This document shows, one piece after another, positions 57,294 through 64,000 of a DNA stretch of 64,000 nucleotides. The DNA comes from Corallococcus macrosporus DSM 14697. GTDB lineage: Bacteria > Myxococcota > Myxococcia > Myxococcales > Myxococcaceae. Positions within the stretch are counted from its first letter, which is position 1. Each line of letters opens with the position of its first letter. The DNA lies in contig NZ_CP022203.1 in the NCBI RefSeq assembly GCF_002305895.1, positions 3,450,501-3,514,500 on the forward strand, read 5' to 3'. Both the position numbers and the translations under genes were made by a program. The notes under the pieces were generated by a model that worked only from the letters and a program-made list of their open reading frames with translations, had not been told where the DNA came from and made no database searches.

Positions 57294-58760
57294 ATGGATC
57301 GCCGGACGTGGTCACTCTTCGAAACGGGCATCCCGAGCTTTGATGCGTTGCTGGGGGGCGGCATCCCCCGTCGTCAGTCCCTCATCGTGGCGGGAGACCC
57401 CGGCTGCGGAAAGACGGTGCTCTGCAGCCAGGTGGCCTTCCTCGCCGCGGCGCGCGGCCTGCCCGTCGTGCTGGTCACCGTCACGTCCGAGCCCCATGAC
57501 AAGCTCGTGGGCGAGCTGACCAGCTTCAGCTTCTTCAAGGAGGCGCTGCTGGACGACAAGCTCTTCGTGATGAGCGCGTACTCCTCGCTCAAGCAGGGCG
57601 CCCGGGAGACGCGTGACCTCATCATCCAGACGGTGCGCAAGCGGGGCGCGAAGCTGCTCTTCATCGACGGACTTCGCGCCATCCGGGACCTCTGGCAGGA
57701 CGAGGCGCGCCTGCGGGAGTTCCTCTACGAGCTGGGCATTGGCCTGGCCGCGGCGGACTGCATCGGCCTCTTCACCACCGAGTATCCCCTGGAGAAGCTG
57801 CTGACGCTGCCCGAGGCCACCACGGTGGACGGCCTCGTCTCCCTGTCGGTGACGAAGCTCGGCGCCCGCCGCATGCGCCGCGTAGAGGTCGTGAAGCTGC
57901 GCGGCCGGCCCCACCTGGCCGGCGCGCACCTGATGCGCATCGACGGGGAGGGGGTGTCCTTCATCCCCCGCCTGGAGGCGCTGGCGTCCGCCGGAAGTGA
58001 CACGCCGCCACCCGAGGGCCGCGTCAGCTTCGGTCTGCCGGAGTTGGACGCGTTGATGGAGGGCGGCCTTCCCCGAACGAGCGCCACGCTGCTCGCGGGG
58101 AGCATGGGCATTGGCAAGACGCTGCTGGCGGCGCACTTCGCGGCCGAGGGCGCGCGCCTGGGAGAGCACGCCCTCTTCGTGTCCTTCCATGACTCCACGG
58201 CGTCGCTCGCTGCCCGGGCGCGGCGCATCCGGCTGGACGTGGAGCGCTACGTGACGAGCGGCATGCTCATCTACCTCTACATTCCTCCCTTGGAGCTGGA
58301 GGCGGACCTCGTGGTGGACCGCATCCTCCAGGAGGTGGCGCGGCGGAACGTGAAGCGGCTGGTCATCGATGGCCTCACGACGCTGGAGCAGTCCATCGTC
58401 GATCCTGAGCGCAGGCAGCTCTTCCTGGCCGCGCTCGCGGAGCGGTTGCGCCGGGCGGGCGTGACGACGCTCTACACCCGCGAGGTCTCCAAGGTGGCCG
58501 GCACGGAGCTCGACTTCAGCGACGCGCCCGTCTCCATCCTCGGGGAGAACCTGCTCCTCCTGCGCTACGTCGAGCTGCGCGGGCGCATCCACCGCCTCCT
58601 CTCCGTGCTCAAGATGCGCGACAGCAAGTACGACAATGACTTGCGCGAGTTCCAGATCGCCGACTCGGGGATGAAGGTCCTCGCGACGATGCGCTCCGCG
58701 GAAGGGTTGTTGACGGGGCAGGCGCGGCCCCTGGGGACGCGCATCGGGGCCGAGGAATGA
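57294..58760 (+). CDS. KaiC-like ATPase with two RecA domains
   Basis: A 488-residue protein with two tandem KaiC/RadA-type domains. The first has Walker A GDPGCGKT (34-41) and Walker B LLFIDGLRAI. The second has Walker A GSMGIGKT (269-276) and Walker B RLVIDGLTTLEQS. Each is preceded by the KaiC signature, FETGIPSFDALLGGGIPR and FGLPELDALMEGGLPR. True circadian KaiC is similar in size, but no KaiA or KaiB is here; such proteins in non-cyanobacteria serve signalling. The next gene starts in its stop codon (ATGA) and encodes a receiver-kinase, so they probably act together. Confidence 0.88.
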   Translation: MDRRTWSLFETGIPSFDALLGGGIPRRQSLIVAGDPGCGKTVLCSQVAFLAAARGLPVVLVTVTSEPHDKLVGELTSFSFFKEALLDDKLFVMSAYSSLKQGARETRDLIIQTVRKRGAKLLFIDGLRAIRDLWQDEARLREFLYELGIGLAAADCIGLFTTEYPLEKLLTLPEATTVDGLVSLSVTKLGARRMRRVEVVKLRGRPHLAGAHLMRIDGEGVSFIPRLEALASAGSDTPPPEGRVSFGLPELDALMEGGLPRTSATLLAGSMGIGKTLLAAHFAAEGARLGEHALFVSFHDSTASLAARARRIRLDVERYVTSGMLIYLYIPPLELEADLVVDRILQEVARRNVKRLVIDGLTTLEQSIVDPERRQLFLAALAERLRRAGVTTLYTREVSKVAGTELDFSDAPVSILGENLLLLRYVELRGRIHRLLSVLKMRDSKYDNDLREFQIADSGMKVLATMRSAEGLLTGQARPLGTRIGAEE

Positions 58761-59854
58761 GCGGCATCCTCATCGCGGAGGACGAGGAGGCCCTGCTCGA
58801 GGTCTTCGCCGAGCTGGTGGAGGCGCTTGGCTACCGCGCCATCCGGGCCCACAACGGAGAGCAGGCCCTCATGCTGGCGCGCACGGAGCCGCCGGACCTG
58901 GTGGTCAGCGACCACATGATGCCCCGCCGGACGGGCGTGGAGTTGCTGCGCGCCATGCGGGCGGAGCCGAGCCTCGCGTCGGTTCCCTTCGTGTTGTTGA
59001 GCGCCGCGCGGCCCTCCGGCCGCGAGGAGGCGGACGTCTTCCTCGCCAAGCCGGTGGACCTGAACGACTTCGAGGAGGCCATCACCAACGCGCTTCGCGC
59101 GCGCCCGCCCGTGGCCATCCCCACCCTGGGGGAGCCGAAGGCGTCCGGCGACGCGCGCAGAGGGCCCGTCCTGGCGCGCGAGGAGGTGCTCAACTGGGTG
59201 GCCCACGAGCTGAAGACGCCGCTCTCCTCGGCCCGCCTCAACGCCCAGGTCCTGCTGCGCAAGCTGATGAAGCGGGGCTCGGAAGACGAGGTCCGCTCCA
59301 CCGAGGCGGTGCTGCGTCAGTTGGACCGGATGAGCCACCTCATCTCCTCCATCCTGGACGCCTCGCGCCTGGCCGAGGGAAAGCTGGAGCTGAAGTCCAG
59401 GCAGGACGACATCGTCGCCTTCCTCCGGGAGCTCATTCAGGAGTGGCGCGAGCTGGAGCCGCAGGTGGAGTTCGTGCTGGTGGGCGCCGAGGCGCCGGTG
59501 CTGCTGCCCTTCGACGGGGAGCGGGTGCGGCAGGTGCTCAACAACCTGCTCTCCAACGCGGTGAAGTACGGGGGCGAGGCACGGCGCGTCGAGCTGGGCC
59601 TCTCGCTGCACCCCGGGCTGGCGGACATCCACGTCCGGGACTGGGGCATCGGCATTTCGGCGGGGGCGCTCCCCTCCGTCTTCGAGCGCTTCCAGCGGGC
59701 GGACGCCGAGCCCGCCCAGGGGCATGGCCTGGGGCTCTACATCGCCTCGTCGCTGGCGAAGCTGCACGGCGGCTCGTTGTCGGTGAAGTCGGCGCTGGGG
59801 GCGGGGTCGACCTTCCACCTCCGCCTTCCCCTGAGCCGGCGCTCCGTGTCCTAG
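58757..59854 (+). CDS. Receiver-histidine kinase hybrid
   Basis: A 365-residue cytoplasmic protein. N-terminal receiver (1-118) with acidic pocket EDE (8-10), phospho-acceptor Asp52 (VVSDHMMP) and Lys in FLAKPVDL. Then HisKA with His150 (WVAHELKTPLSSARL) and a complete ATPase domain (VLNNLLSNAVKYGG, DWGIGIS, GHGLGLYIASSLAKLHGG split as GHGLGLYIA and LHGG). With the receiver first, it can take phosphate from another kinase and then modulate its own activity. Coupled to the KaiC-like gene. Its stop overlaps, on the other strand, the stop of cysteine desulfurase (CTAG). Confidence 0.92.
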   Translation: MSGILIAEDEEALLEVFAELVEALGYRAIRAHNGEQALMLARTEPPDLVVSDHMMPRRTGVELLRAMRAEPSLASVPFVLLSAARPSGREEADVFLAKPVDLNDFEEAITNALRARPPVAIPTLGEPKASGDARRGPVLAREEVLNWVAHELKTPLSSARLNAQVLLRKLMKRGSEDEVRSTEAVLRQLDRMSHLISSILDASRLAEGKLELKSRQDDIVAFLRELIQEWRELEPQVEFVLVGAEAPVLLPFDGERVRQVLNNLLSNAVKYGGEARRVELGLSLHPGLADIHVRDWGIGISAGALPSVFERFQRADAEPAQGHGLGLYIASSLAKLHGGSLSVKSALGAGSTFHLRLPLSRRSVS

Positions 59855-60996
59855 CCGGCCAGCGCGCGGACGCTGGGGACGTGCCGGACGAGCGCCTCCA
59901 CCACGCGCGTGACGTCCGCTTCCGTCGTGCCGGGCCCCAGGCTGAAGCGGAGGCTGCCCCGGGCCTGGGCCGCCGACAGGCCCATGGCCCGCAGCACGTG
60001 GGAGGGCGACAGCGTGCCGGACGCGCAGGCCGCGCCGGACGACACGCAGATGCCCTCCAGGTCCAGGGCCATCAGCAGCGACTCCCCCTCCACCGCGTCG
60101 AAGCGCAGGTTGCTGGTGTTGGGGACGCGCGGCGCATCGCCGCCGTTGACGTGTACGCCGGACAGGCGCGCCGCCACCTCTCGCTCGAACGCGTCTCGGA
60201 GCGCGGTGAGCCGGGCCGCCGTTTCGGGCAGCTCCGCCACGGCCAGCTCCAACGCCAGCGCCAGCGCTTCGGCGTAGGGCACGTTCTGCGTCCCGCCGCG
60301 GCGGCCGCCTTCCTGGTGGCCTGGCGTCAGCGCCTGGACGTCCACGCGCTTGCGCACCATCAGCACGCCCACGCCCGGTGGCCCGCCGAACTTGTGCGCG
60401 GACAGCGACAGCAGGTCGGCGTCCACCTCGCGCAGGGACAGGGGGACCTTGCCCGCGGCCTGCACCGCGTCCGTGTGGAACAGCACGCCGCGCTGCCGGC
60501 ACGCGCGCGCCACCTCCCGCGCCGGTTGGAGCACGCCCGTCTCGTTGTTGGCCCACATCAGCGAGCACAACGCCGTGTCCGGCGTCAGGGCCTCCAGCAC
60601 CTCGGCCTCGCGCACGCGTCCCTCCGGACCTGGCGCCACACGGACGACGTGCGCGCCCTCGCGCTCCAACCGCGCCGCCGCGCCCAGCAGGGCGGGGTGC
60701 TCCACCGCGGACGTCACCACCCGCCGCCGCTCGGGCCGTGGGCGGGCGTACCAGGCGCCCAGGAGCGCCAGCGCATCCGCCTCACTGCCGGAGCCGGTGA
60801 AGCTGACCTCCTTCGGCTCGCACCCGAGCACGCGGGCCACCTTCACGCGCGCCGCGTCCAGGCGCGCCCGGGCCGCGCGGCCCTCCTGGTGCACGCTGGA
60901 CGCGTTGCCGAAGCCTCCGGAAGCGAAGGCCCGCGACAGCAGCGCCACCACCTCCGGGCGCACCGGCGCGGCCGCGTTGTAGTCCCAGTACGTCAC
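59851..60996 (-). CDS. Cysteine desulfurase (NifS/IscS family)
   Basis: PLP enzyme that takes sulfur from cysteine for iron-sulfur clusters or tRNA thiolation. About 381 residues from a GTG that overlaps the DHH-gene stop (GTGA). Visible: SAVEHPALL (His stacking on PLP), ANNETGVLQP, HTDAVQAAGK, PLP-lysine in LSLSAHKFGGPPG, and the persulfide cysteine in GICVSSGAACASG. No IscU or SUF partner is nearby, so its client is unknown. Coupled to the phosphoesterase gene upstream. Confidence 0.92.
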   Translation of the reverse strand: MTYWDYNAAAPVRPEVVALLSRAFASGGFGNASSVHQEGRAARARLDAARVKVARVLGCEPKEVSFTGSGSEADALALLGAWYARPRPERRRVVTSAVEHPALLGAAARLEREGAHVVRVAPGPEGRVREAEVLEALTPDTALCSLMWANNETGVLQPAREVARACRQRGVLFHTDAVQAAGKVPLSLREVDADLLSLSAHKFGGPPGVGVLMVRKRVDVQALTPGHQEGGRRGGTQNVPYAEALALALELAVAELPETAARLTALRDAFEREVAARLSGVHVNGGDAPRVPNTSNLRFDAVEGESLLMALDLEGICVSSGAACASGTLSPSHVLRAMGLSAAQARGSLRFSLGPGTTEADVTRVVEALVRHVPSVRALAG

Positions 60997-62114
60997 GAGT
61001 CCTGCGCGTACAGCAGCGACACCGGCCGCTCGTCCGAGACGCCGAAGGCCTCCAGGAACTTGCCCACCAGCTCGCGCTTGAGGGCCTTGCGCTGCGCCAG
61101 CTTCCCGGACAGCGGCAGCCGCGCGCCCGCCATGCTGCCGTGGCCTCCGGACGAGCCGCCGTAGTCCTCGCAAATCTCCCGGATGAGGCGCCCCGCGTTC
61201 ATCCGCCGGTCCTTCACCCGCAGGCTGAGGAAGAGCTGGTTGCGGTACGTCCCGAAGGCCAGCGACCACTTCATCCCTTCCAGGAACATCAGCCGCTCGG
61301 CCACCTCCGCCACCATGTCCGGGGAGTAGACCTCCTCCAGGTCGGTGACGATGGCCGTCCCGTACACCTTCGCCCGCTCATACGCCGTGTGGTAGAGCTG
61401 GAAGTAGCGCGCGGGCAGCTCGGGGTGCTCAATCTGCGCCAGCAGCGTCTTGTCCATGCGGGGGAACAGCCACAGGTAGCTGTCCACGTCCGTGGGCGTC
61501 GTCTCCCGGCCCAAGTCCCGCGTGTCCGCCTTGATGCCGTAGAACAGGCCGGTGGCCACCTCCACGGAGGGCTCCAGCCGCGCGGCGCGCAGGTACTCCA
61601 CCAGCATGGTGGAGGTGGCGCCGAAGTCGCCCCCCACGTCCGCGAAGGGGGCCTCCAGGCTCTCCTGGCGCAGCGGGTGGTGGTCCACCACCACGTGCGC
61701 CTCCTTCTTGGCGGGCAGCGAGTGGTTGCCCACCTTCGGCTGGGTGTCCACCAGCCCGAAGAGGTCGTACTCGTCGAGGTCGAGCGTCGACACGTGCGAG
61801 ACGGGCAGGCGCAGCACCTTCACGAAGGCGATGTTCTCCGCCCGGCCGATGATGCCCCCGTAGCCGACGTGCGCCTCCATGCCCGCCTTGTGCTCCAGCA
61901 GGTGCGCCAGGGCGACGGCCGCCGCCAGCGAGTCCGGGTCCGGGTTGTCGTGGGTGAGGATGAGCGCCTTGTGGTGGCCCTGGGCCACGCGCAGGAGCCG
62001 CTCCAGCTTGTCACGGGCCGGCATATGGGCCAGCCGCGCTGGCGGGGGCTCCGTCAGCTCGCCTCCCGAGTTTCCGGCTCCGCGGCGGCTGTTGAGGGAC
62101 TGGGTCACAGGCAT
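60993..62114 (-). CDS. DHH/DHHA1 family phosphoesterase (NrnA-like)
   Basis: About 373 residues; probably degrades short oligoribonucleotides or 3'-phosphoadenosine phosphate, or cyclic dinucleotide products. DHH domain metal motifs: THDNPDPDSLAAAVAL, LVDTQPKVG and VVVDHHPLR. The DHHA1 part ends in GGSSGGHGSMAGARLP, where the family has GGGH. ATG at 62114 is used, with a second ATG at 62024 possible. Just upstream lies a structured region (62144-62203) that may control it. It is followed, with overlap, by cysteine desulfurase. Confidence 0.88.
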   Translation of the reverse strand: MPVTQSLNSRRGAGNSGGELTEPPPARLAHMPARDKLERLLRVAQGHHKALILTHDNPDPDSLAAAVALAHLLEHKAGMEAHVGYGGIIGRAENIAFVKVLRLPVSHVSTLDLDEYDLFGLVDTQPKVGNHSLPAKKEAHVVVDHHPLRQESLEAPFADVGGDFGATSTMLVEYLRAARLEPSVEVATGLFYGIKADTRDLGRETTPTDVDSYLWLFPRMDKTLLAQIEHPELPARYFQLYHTAYERAKVYGTAIVTDLEEVYSPDMVAEVAERLMFLEGMKWSLAFGTYRNQLFLSLRVKDRRMNAGRLIREICEDYGGSSGGHGSMAGARLPLSGKLAQRKALKRELVGKFLEAFGVSDERPVSLLYAQDS

Positions 62115-62267: not shown

Positions 62268-63227
62268 CTAGCCGTTCAGCGCCTTGTACTTGCGCCCCAG
62301 GTCCCGGAAGTACTTCATGCCGTTGTCCAGCGAGTTCTCCATCGCGTCCATCAGCACCGTGCGGAAGGCCGCCGCGGGTCCCCGGAAGGACTCGTAGTAG
62401 CGCTGCCGGTCGATGGAGTGGATGACGGCGGGCATGTAGCCGTTGCGCAGCAGGATGAGGTTGCTGCACATGCGCCCCACCTTCCCGCTGTGCTCGGTGA
62501 AGGGGAAGATCTGCACGAACTTGTGCTGGACCGTGGCCGCCTGCTTGATGGGGTGGAACTCACGGAACTCGGCGCTGGCCGTGTAGTCCACGAGCTTCTC
62601 CAGCTCCGGCTGGATCTTCGCCGGCTGGGCGATGTCGTGGAAGTACGTGCGGTGCAGCGGCATGTCCTTGCGCAGCCCGGACCTGTCCCGCTCCTTGGCC
62701 AGCTCCTTCTCGGTGCGCTCGCGGCGCTCCATGCGCGCGCGCTCCGTCTGCGCCTCGGGCGTGTTGCCCAGGAAGAGGTCGTGCATCCGCTTGATGGTGG
62801 TCAGCGTGATCTGCGCCTGCTTCCTGGCGCCCGCCGCCTCCTCGCGGATGTAGTCGCAGACGGCCTTGTGGTTCCGGATTTCAAGGACGACCGGAATCAT
62901 GGAGGCCTCCGCGCTGGTCCGATGCGGGAACAGCGCGGCCATCAGCTCCTGATGGGTGTAGACGACTCCCTCCAGCGCGGCGTCGTGGTAGATCCACGAC
63001 ATCTCCATCTTGTCCATGAACTCGCGCGCGTCAGGTTTGTCCTTGTAGATGTCGAGGTACCCACGCAGCGTCTCGTTCTTCTCATCGATGTCCTGGTAGC
63101 GTTCCTTCACGGACTGCGGCTCCTTCTCGCTGCGGGTCCGCCGCGGGCGGTACACGAAGCATGCGGCCGAGCGGTACAACGGCGCGTGGATTCTAGAAAT
63201 TCCGCGCGGTTGTAACAACGAAATCAT
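62268..63227 (-). CDS. Fic-fold protein with a degenerate active-site motif
   Basis: Fic enzymes transfer AMP or other groups to proteins using HPFx[D/E]GNGRxxR. This 319-residue protein has the fold context (SWIYHDAALEGVVYTHQEL near the start, AATVQHKFVQI before the motif and a helix after it). The motif itself reads FPFTEHSGKVGR, residues 241-252: the catalytic His is Phe241 and GNGR is altered to HSGK. Ordinary AMPylation is therefore unlikely. Its start shares one base with the stop of the AAA+ gene (TGATG), so the two form a coupled pair. A middle insert is highly charged (ERARMERRERTEKELAKERD). Confidence 0.78.
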   Translation of the reverse strand: MISLLQPRGISRIHAPLYRSAACFVYRPRRTRSEKEPQSVKERYQDIDEKNETLRGYLDIYKDKPDAREFMDKMEMSWIYHDAALEGVVYTHQELMAALFPHRTSAEASMIPVVLEIRNHKAVCDYIREEAAGARKQAQITLTTIKRMHDLFLGNTPEAQTERARMERRERTEKELAKERDRSGLRKDMPLHRTYFHDIAQPAKIQPELEKLVDYTASAEFREFHPIKQAATVQHKFVQIFPFTEHSGKVGRMCSNLILLRNGYMPAVIHSIDRQRYYESFRGPAAAFRTVLMDAMENSLDNGMKYFRDLGRKYKALNG

Positions 63228-64000
63228 CACAGATTGACGAGGAACACCTCGCACGCCTGGTCGAGCAGGTCCTTGGAGAGCGCCGGGGGTATCTGCCGGT
63301 ATCGCGCCGCGTCCCGGATGAGGCTCACCAGGTCCCGCGGGTGACACGAGCGCAGCTCCATGCTCCGGGGCTTGTAGTAGTGCTCGATGAGGTACGTGAC
63401 GGCCTGGTCCACGTACGGGATTCCCGCCGCCTCGCAGACGCGGCTGAAGATTTCCCGGTAAGCCTCTTCGTCGGGGTTCCCGACCTCAATCTTGTACTTG
63501 ATGCGGCGCAGGAAGGCCTCGTCCACCAGCTCCTTGGGGTCCAGGTTGGTGGAGAAGACGAGGAGCTGGTCGAAGGGGATTTCGAACTTCTTGCCGGTGT
63601 GGAGGGTGAGGAAGTCCACCCGCTTCTCCAGGGGGACGATCCACCGGTTGAGCAGGTCCGTGGGGTGGACCTTCTGGCGGCCGAAGTCGTCGATGAGGAG
63701 CATGCCGCCGTTGGCCTTCACCTGGAACGGCGCTTCGTAGAAGCGGGTGCTCTCCGAATAGATGAGGTCCAGCATGGCCAGCGTCAGCTCGCCGCCCACG
63801 ACGACGGAGGGCCGGCGGCAGACCAGCCACCGGTTGTCCATTTCGAACGTCTGGCGGCGGCCCGACGTGTCCCGGCCCACCTCCAGCGACACCGGCGTGT
63901 GGATGAGCCGGTCGTAGACCTGGATGATCTGATTGCCAATCTCCAGGCAGTGGGGGACGAAGACCTCGCCGCCGAACATGTTGGAGACGGCCTCGGCCAG
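63227..64000 (-). CDS. AAA+ ATPase, C-terminal part
   Basis: 257 residues of an AAA+ protein whose N-terminus, including Walker A, lies beyond the right edge. Visible are Walker B GGMLLIDDFGR, sensor-1 LLVFSTNLDPKEL, the arginine-bearing EAFLRRIKYKIEV, and a helical lid (EEAYREIFSRVCEAAG, RSCHPRDLVSLIRDAAR). It is MoxR/chaperone-like in outline, but the subfamily cannot be fixed. Translationally coupled to the Fic-fold gene downstream, which suggests a joint function. Confidence 0.85.
   Translation of the reverse strand: MAEAVSNMFGGEVFVPHCLEIGNQIIQVYDRLIHTPVSLEVGRDTSGRRQTFEMDNRWLVCRRPSVVVGGELTLAMLDLIYSESTRFYEAPFQVKANGGMLLIDDFGRQKVHPTDLLNRWIVPLEKRVDFLTLHTGKKFEIPFDQLLVFSTNLDPKELVDEAFLRRIKYKIEVGNPDEEAYREIFSRVCEAAGIPYVDQAVTYLIEHYYKPRSMELRSCHPRDLVSLIRDAARYRQIPPALSKDLLDQACEVFLVNL

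Follow-up and report, generated by a model that had tools for sequence, protein, structure and literature searches.

A Fic-fold protein family of the Myxococcota with phenylalanine or tyrosine in place of the catalytic histidine

Results

The locus and the start of the Fic gene

The window analyzed here, a stretch of 64,000 nucleotides from Corallococcus macrosporus DSM 14697 (C1:3450501-3514500 of a genome assembled as a single contig of 8,973,512 bases), carries on its minus strand an intact open reading frame for a 280-residue Fic-fold protein without the catalytic histidine, which we call pFic (62268-63110, GTG start, stop at 62268-62270). Directly upstream on the same strand lies an AAA+ ATPase gene (Pfam AAA, PF00004), as an earlier note on this DNA had stated. 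The window holds its C-terminal part (63227-64000), and the full gene (446 aa, genome C1:3513727-3515067) runs beyond the window edge. The downstream neighbor, also on the minus strand, encodes a DHH/DHHA1 phosphoesterase (60993-62021) and is kept in much of the order Myxococcales, where genes are commonly found in the collinear order IlvE-[AAA+]-Fic-[endonuclease IV]-DHH-NifS; the endonuclease IV label was assigned by inspecting the sequence and not by a profile match. Since IlvE, endonuclease IV, DHH and NifS are conserved within the order but hardly beyond it, we take them as synteny and reject them as a clue to function. The end of the DHH gene is overlapped by a few bases by the frame of a NifS-like cysteine desulfurase (59851-60996, minus strand). 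On the plus strand, 57294-59854 encodes a two-domain KaiC-like ATPase, the stop of which overlaps the start of a response-regulator/histidine-kinase hybrid.

The earlier note had begun the Fic gene at an ATG (63225-63227) that overlaps the AAA+ stop (63227-63229) by one base, and had read this overlap as pointing to a two-component system. Six Myxococcus-genus genomes, however, carry an in-frame TAG that lies two codons upstream of the GTG at 63108-63110. A start codon is found at or beside the GTG position in all relatives examined, and most of them have a Shine-Dalgarno-like GGAG, present here as GAAGGAG (63120-63126, minus strand) at a distance of 9 bases from the GTG. This places the gene at 62268-63110, and the one-base overlap is an artefact of an over-long open reading frame. 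About 117 bases separate the AAA+ stop from the pFic start, which leaves translational coupling by overlap unsupported; this gap (63111-63226, minus strand) was once read as the N-terminus of the Fic protein, and a search of it for RNA elements returned no Rfam match. Adjacent AAA+/pFic pairs in genomes of the phylum have aligned frames mostly 87-164 bases apart, and for the most part about 125 to 140, with Fic coordinates taken from profile matches beginning at residue 2. This spacing, the sister-genome TAGs and the conserved start and Shine-Dalgarno sequence rule out proteins of 359 or 319 aa. With the start corrected, the phenylalanine previously numbered 241 becomes F202.

pFic has a Fic fold closest to that of FICD

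pFic scores 47 bits with the Pfam Fic family (PF02661), for which the cut-off is 24 (E = 4e-12 to 6e-12). All 53 of the family members scanned match this family too. pFic is the sole Fic domain in the 8.97-Mb host genome. An AlphaFold2 model built with 53 sequences is all-helical, with a pLDDT of 90.3 and a pTM of 0.88. FICD is the top match in both Foldseek and VIA-align (7b7z, Z 27.9, 2.6 Å over 244 residues, 23% identity). The nearest solved folds are those of the metazoan class II AMPylases/deAMPylases FICD/HYPE and Fic-1 (Z 25-28, 19-24% identity), which also provide the best sequence match (profile E = 6e-30). Judged by the Pfam match and by the overlay of this predicted structure on Fic enzymes, pFic has a true Fic fold, in line with what had been proposed from the sequence. 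The flap region (residues 144-162) is strand-free in the model and predicted with moderate confidence (pLDDT about 79). The match to AvrB is much weaker than that to FICD (Z about 12 vs. 28, 10-12% identity).

The catalytic histidine is absent from the whole family

Alignment of the family with FICD places the degenerate Fic motif of pFic at F202-P-F-T-E-H-S-G-K-V-G-R213 (62472-62507, minus strand). Here FPFTEHSGKVGR falls on HPFIDGNGRTSR of human FICD, with a phenylalanine codon (62505-62507) opposite the catalytic histidine and the final arginine retained, just as the earlier note had described. Across the family, FICD His363 is replaced by Phe or Tyr and GNGR by x[ST]G[KR]. No second HPF motif was found anywhere in the pFic protein sequence; the HP at residues 186-187 is the HP preceding helix α4, which FICD has too, and a true motif hidden elsewhere is ruled out. 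Among 214 aligned members the histidine position is Phe in 202 and Tyr in 12, and not one of more than 140 distinct family sequences has His there. Pro203 and Gly209 are invariant in the same alignment and the motif Asn is Ser or Thr in 210 members, while the metal-binding acid position (206) is Glu or Asp in 192 and another residue in 22 (about 10%).

A pseudogene or sequencing artefact would account for the motif change, and for nothing more. We regard this explanation as refuted by the intact reading frame, by purifying selection (dN/dS of 0.07-0.16 against six relatives) and by the lack of histidine throughout the family. Together with the confidently predicted fold, these observations identify pFic as a maintained variant and not a product of decay, as originally suspected.

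FICD without its catalytic histidine loses both deAMPylation and AMPylation (PMC8373988). Because FICD needs this residue for both, FICD-type AMPylation and deAMPylation would be impossible for pFic, and by this analogy the known reaction is very unlikely. One could still suppose that pFic transfers AMP or another NMP, with a different residue as base or slowly with none: the pocket Arg and Tyr and most of the acids at position 206 are kept, and PMC4454073 cites an IbpA mutant, His to Ala, that retains some activity. The behavior of FICD and the members that lack the acid at 206 argue against such transfer, which we consider improbable.

Conservation outside the motif

Over 142 distinct sequences, H42, G48, R147, Y156, H158, P203, G209, R213, R235 and Y238 never vary, H153 is found in 141, and positions 43 and 47 carry an acidic residue in every sequence. 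Most of these positions fall into three segments outside the motif. The first resembles an inhibitory helix. Class II Fic proteins carry such a helix of their own, with the motif (S/T)xxxE(G/N). In pFic, the conserved segment Y41-H42-D43-A-A-L-E47-G48 (62967-62990, minus strand) aligns with YHTVAIEG of FICD, so that position 47 lies on the gatekeeper Glu234 and position 43 on the Ser/Thr of the usual motif. All family members have Glu/Asp47 and Gly48, and the Ser/Thr position is always Asp or Glu. The second segment is a remodeled flap, R147-K-D-M-P-L-H153-R-T-Y156-F-H158-D-I160 (62631-62672, minus strand), and its HR.Y.H pattern is absent from the canonical Fics aligned here. The third, D234-R235-Q-R-Y238-Y239 (62394-62411, minus strand), aligns with RSDYY of FICD and retains the Arg and Tyr of the Fido pocket region. 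pFic and FICD have in common the inhibitory-helix-like segment YH.xx[LI]EG, the equivalent of Arg374 and RxxYY, but the flap of pFic (HR.Y.H[DE]) has no predicted hairpin, and pFic has no TPR part.

Distribution in the phylum

pFic was found in 61 of 61 relatives, from 28 genera. A profile of 37 sequences has matches in 178 of 195 Myxococcota genomes, or about 176 once two genomes with canonical matches only, G123 and G175, are left out of the family count. Family members score above 200 bits and canonical Fics at most 112. In a FastTree tree, all 38 sampled members form one clade that includes none of eight canonical Fics (support 0.81). Some absences appear to be assembly gaps, since G123 is missing the whole region, IlvE and DHH included, and in G156 IlvE lies at a contig edge; true loss of the gene pair was rejected for both. 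A scan of GTDB gave 247 loci, the best 80 of which look like Myxococcota or come from records labeled Deltaproteobacteria or Proteobacteria. One record labeled Comamonas sp. KCTC 72670 (BNCN01000003.1) contains a Fic protein that shares 95% identity with its Myxococcus counterpart and is probably misassigned.

These patterns suggest that pFic is a vertically inherited, near-universal protein of the Myxococcota, related to FICD and to other Fics with a built-in inhibitory helix, and that the catalytic histidine would have disappeared before the sampled Myxococcota diverged from one another. A role in a toxin-antitoxin or defense module, at which weak profile matches to the defense-associated Fic and AAA models PADLOC PDC-S04, SoFic and IetA might hint, fits poorly with a near-universal gene that, in much of the order, sits in a collinear run with housekeeping genes. 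The matches on plasmids and phages are also remote, and the histidine is present in four of the five that were examined; we hold this role to be highly improbable. A Fic protein outside the clade, encoded on a megaplasmid of Mycetohabitans endofungorum (NZ_CP062179.1, 292-1098), has Tyr for the catalytic His in an otherwise canonical motif (YPFVDGNGRTGR). By its sequence, this loss of histidine is independent of the pFic clade.

The AAA+ ATPase is a frequent but not an obligate neighbor

A close orthologue of the AAA+ ATPase is present in 103 of the 195 genomes. In 81 of these 103 it lies upstream of pFic on the same strand and within 2.5 kb (two with about 1 kb between the genes), and the genomes with adjacent genes include families of other classes. 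In about 20 genomes the two are on different contigs, some of them contig-edge cases. The association has a Fisher P of 8e-6, which, given the shared phylogeny, makes it look stronger than it is. About 74 genomes have pFic and no AAA+ orthologue at a threshold of E 1e-130, again with some contig-edge cases, whereas the orthologue occurs without pFic in a single genome, which is 79% complete. The link between the two genes that the earlier note had drawn is supported in part, but the adjacency is not universal and an obligate two-component system finds no support. Because pFic is often alone and the AAA+ gene almost never is, the ATPase seems to depend on the Fic protein and not the reverse.

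Discussion

Fic proteins are defined by one histidine, and their occurrence is often patchy, mobile or virulence-linked. A Fic protein that is phylum-wide, strongly conserved and always His-less offers a natural experiment on the capacities of the Fido fold when this histidine is missing, and the function of such a protein would have to differ from the known Fic reaction. Myxococcus xanthus is a genetically tractable model organism of the phylum. We found no description of the pFic family in the open literature, and the profile libraries searched held no dedicated model for it. Altered Fic motifs shared by an entire clade have precedents: in Doc clade D2, the catalytic His is replaced throughout by Gln (PMC4454073). 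pFic is thus a further variant and not a new kind, and it differs from clade D2, which is of Doc type, in the replacing residue and in the motif, Qx[FY]x[DE][GV]NKR in D2.

Two other proteins illustrate what a Fic or Fido domain may do without the usual catalysis. AvrB has the Fido fold but not the motif, and it catalyzes a different reaction, rhamnosyl transfer (PMC10866546). As in pFic, the motif Pro and Gly are kept and Asn is changed to Ser (PMC2686095). AvrB needs no metal. Unlike pFic, it contains an inserted lobe, and Arg occupies its metal position. BepC of Bartonella has a Fic domain that works without catalysis (PMC7842960), but BepC keeps its histidine and is altered only at the metal acid, which has become Lys.

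pFic may be a true pseudoenzyme that binds a nucleotide, or a phosphorylated or AMPylated protein, without converting it, and that serves as a sensor, adaptor or scaffold, passing the signal to the AAA+ ATPase in genomes that have it. The loss of the catalytic histidine in every member, the drift of the metal-binding acid, the retention of Gly209 and Arg213 and the example of BepC all fit this explanation, which we consider a serious possibility. It leaves the (near-)invariance of three His, two acids and two Tyr outside the canonical motif less well explained, as simple binding usually needs fewer fixed residues.

Our tentative preference is that pFic is a His-less Fido family that does not AMPylate by the known mechanism, and that a re-sited set of His and acidic residues may support a different Fido chemistry. 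We slightly favor re-sited catalysis over a binding-only pseudoenzyme because the conserved set includes three additional His and two additional acids in segments flanking the former pocket, and because AvrB is a known motif-less Fido protein with other chemistry. On the other side, ligand or protein binding by itself could also produce such strong conservation, the metal-binding acid is missing from about 10% of members, and the flap is modeled with moderate confidence. Of the old pocket, Arg147, Gly209, Arg213, Arg235 and Tyr238 are kept, and in the sequence a frozen set surrounds them (His42, acidic 43 and 47, His153, Tyr156 and His158). If catalysis has been re-sited, pFic would still bind a phosphate-containing ligand, probably a nucleotide, and would act on a target positioned beneath the flap, and the His/acid set would supply acid/base (or metal) residues. 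A fuller version, suggested by the same conserved positions, is more doubtful: a new Fido chemistry in a core gene of the phylum, with the catalytic residues no longer on the motif loop but on the inhibitory helix and flap (H42, D/E43, E/D47, H153, H158) and the AAA+ ATPase operating with it in part of the phylum.

Where it is present, the upstream AAA+ ATPase may act on pFic or on its target, as an accessory and not an obligatory partner. The host genome also encodes a second AAA+ ATPase (C1:4805793-4807028), 46% identical to the pFic partner and with no Fic gene beside it; among the Myxococcaceae genomes that were searched, most have this second ATPase.
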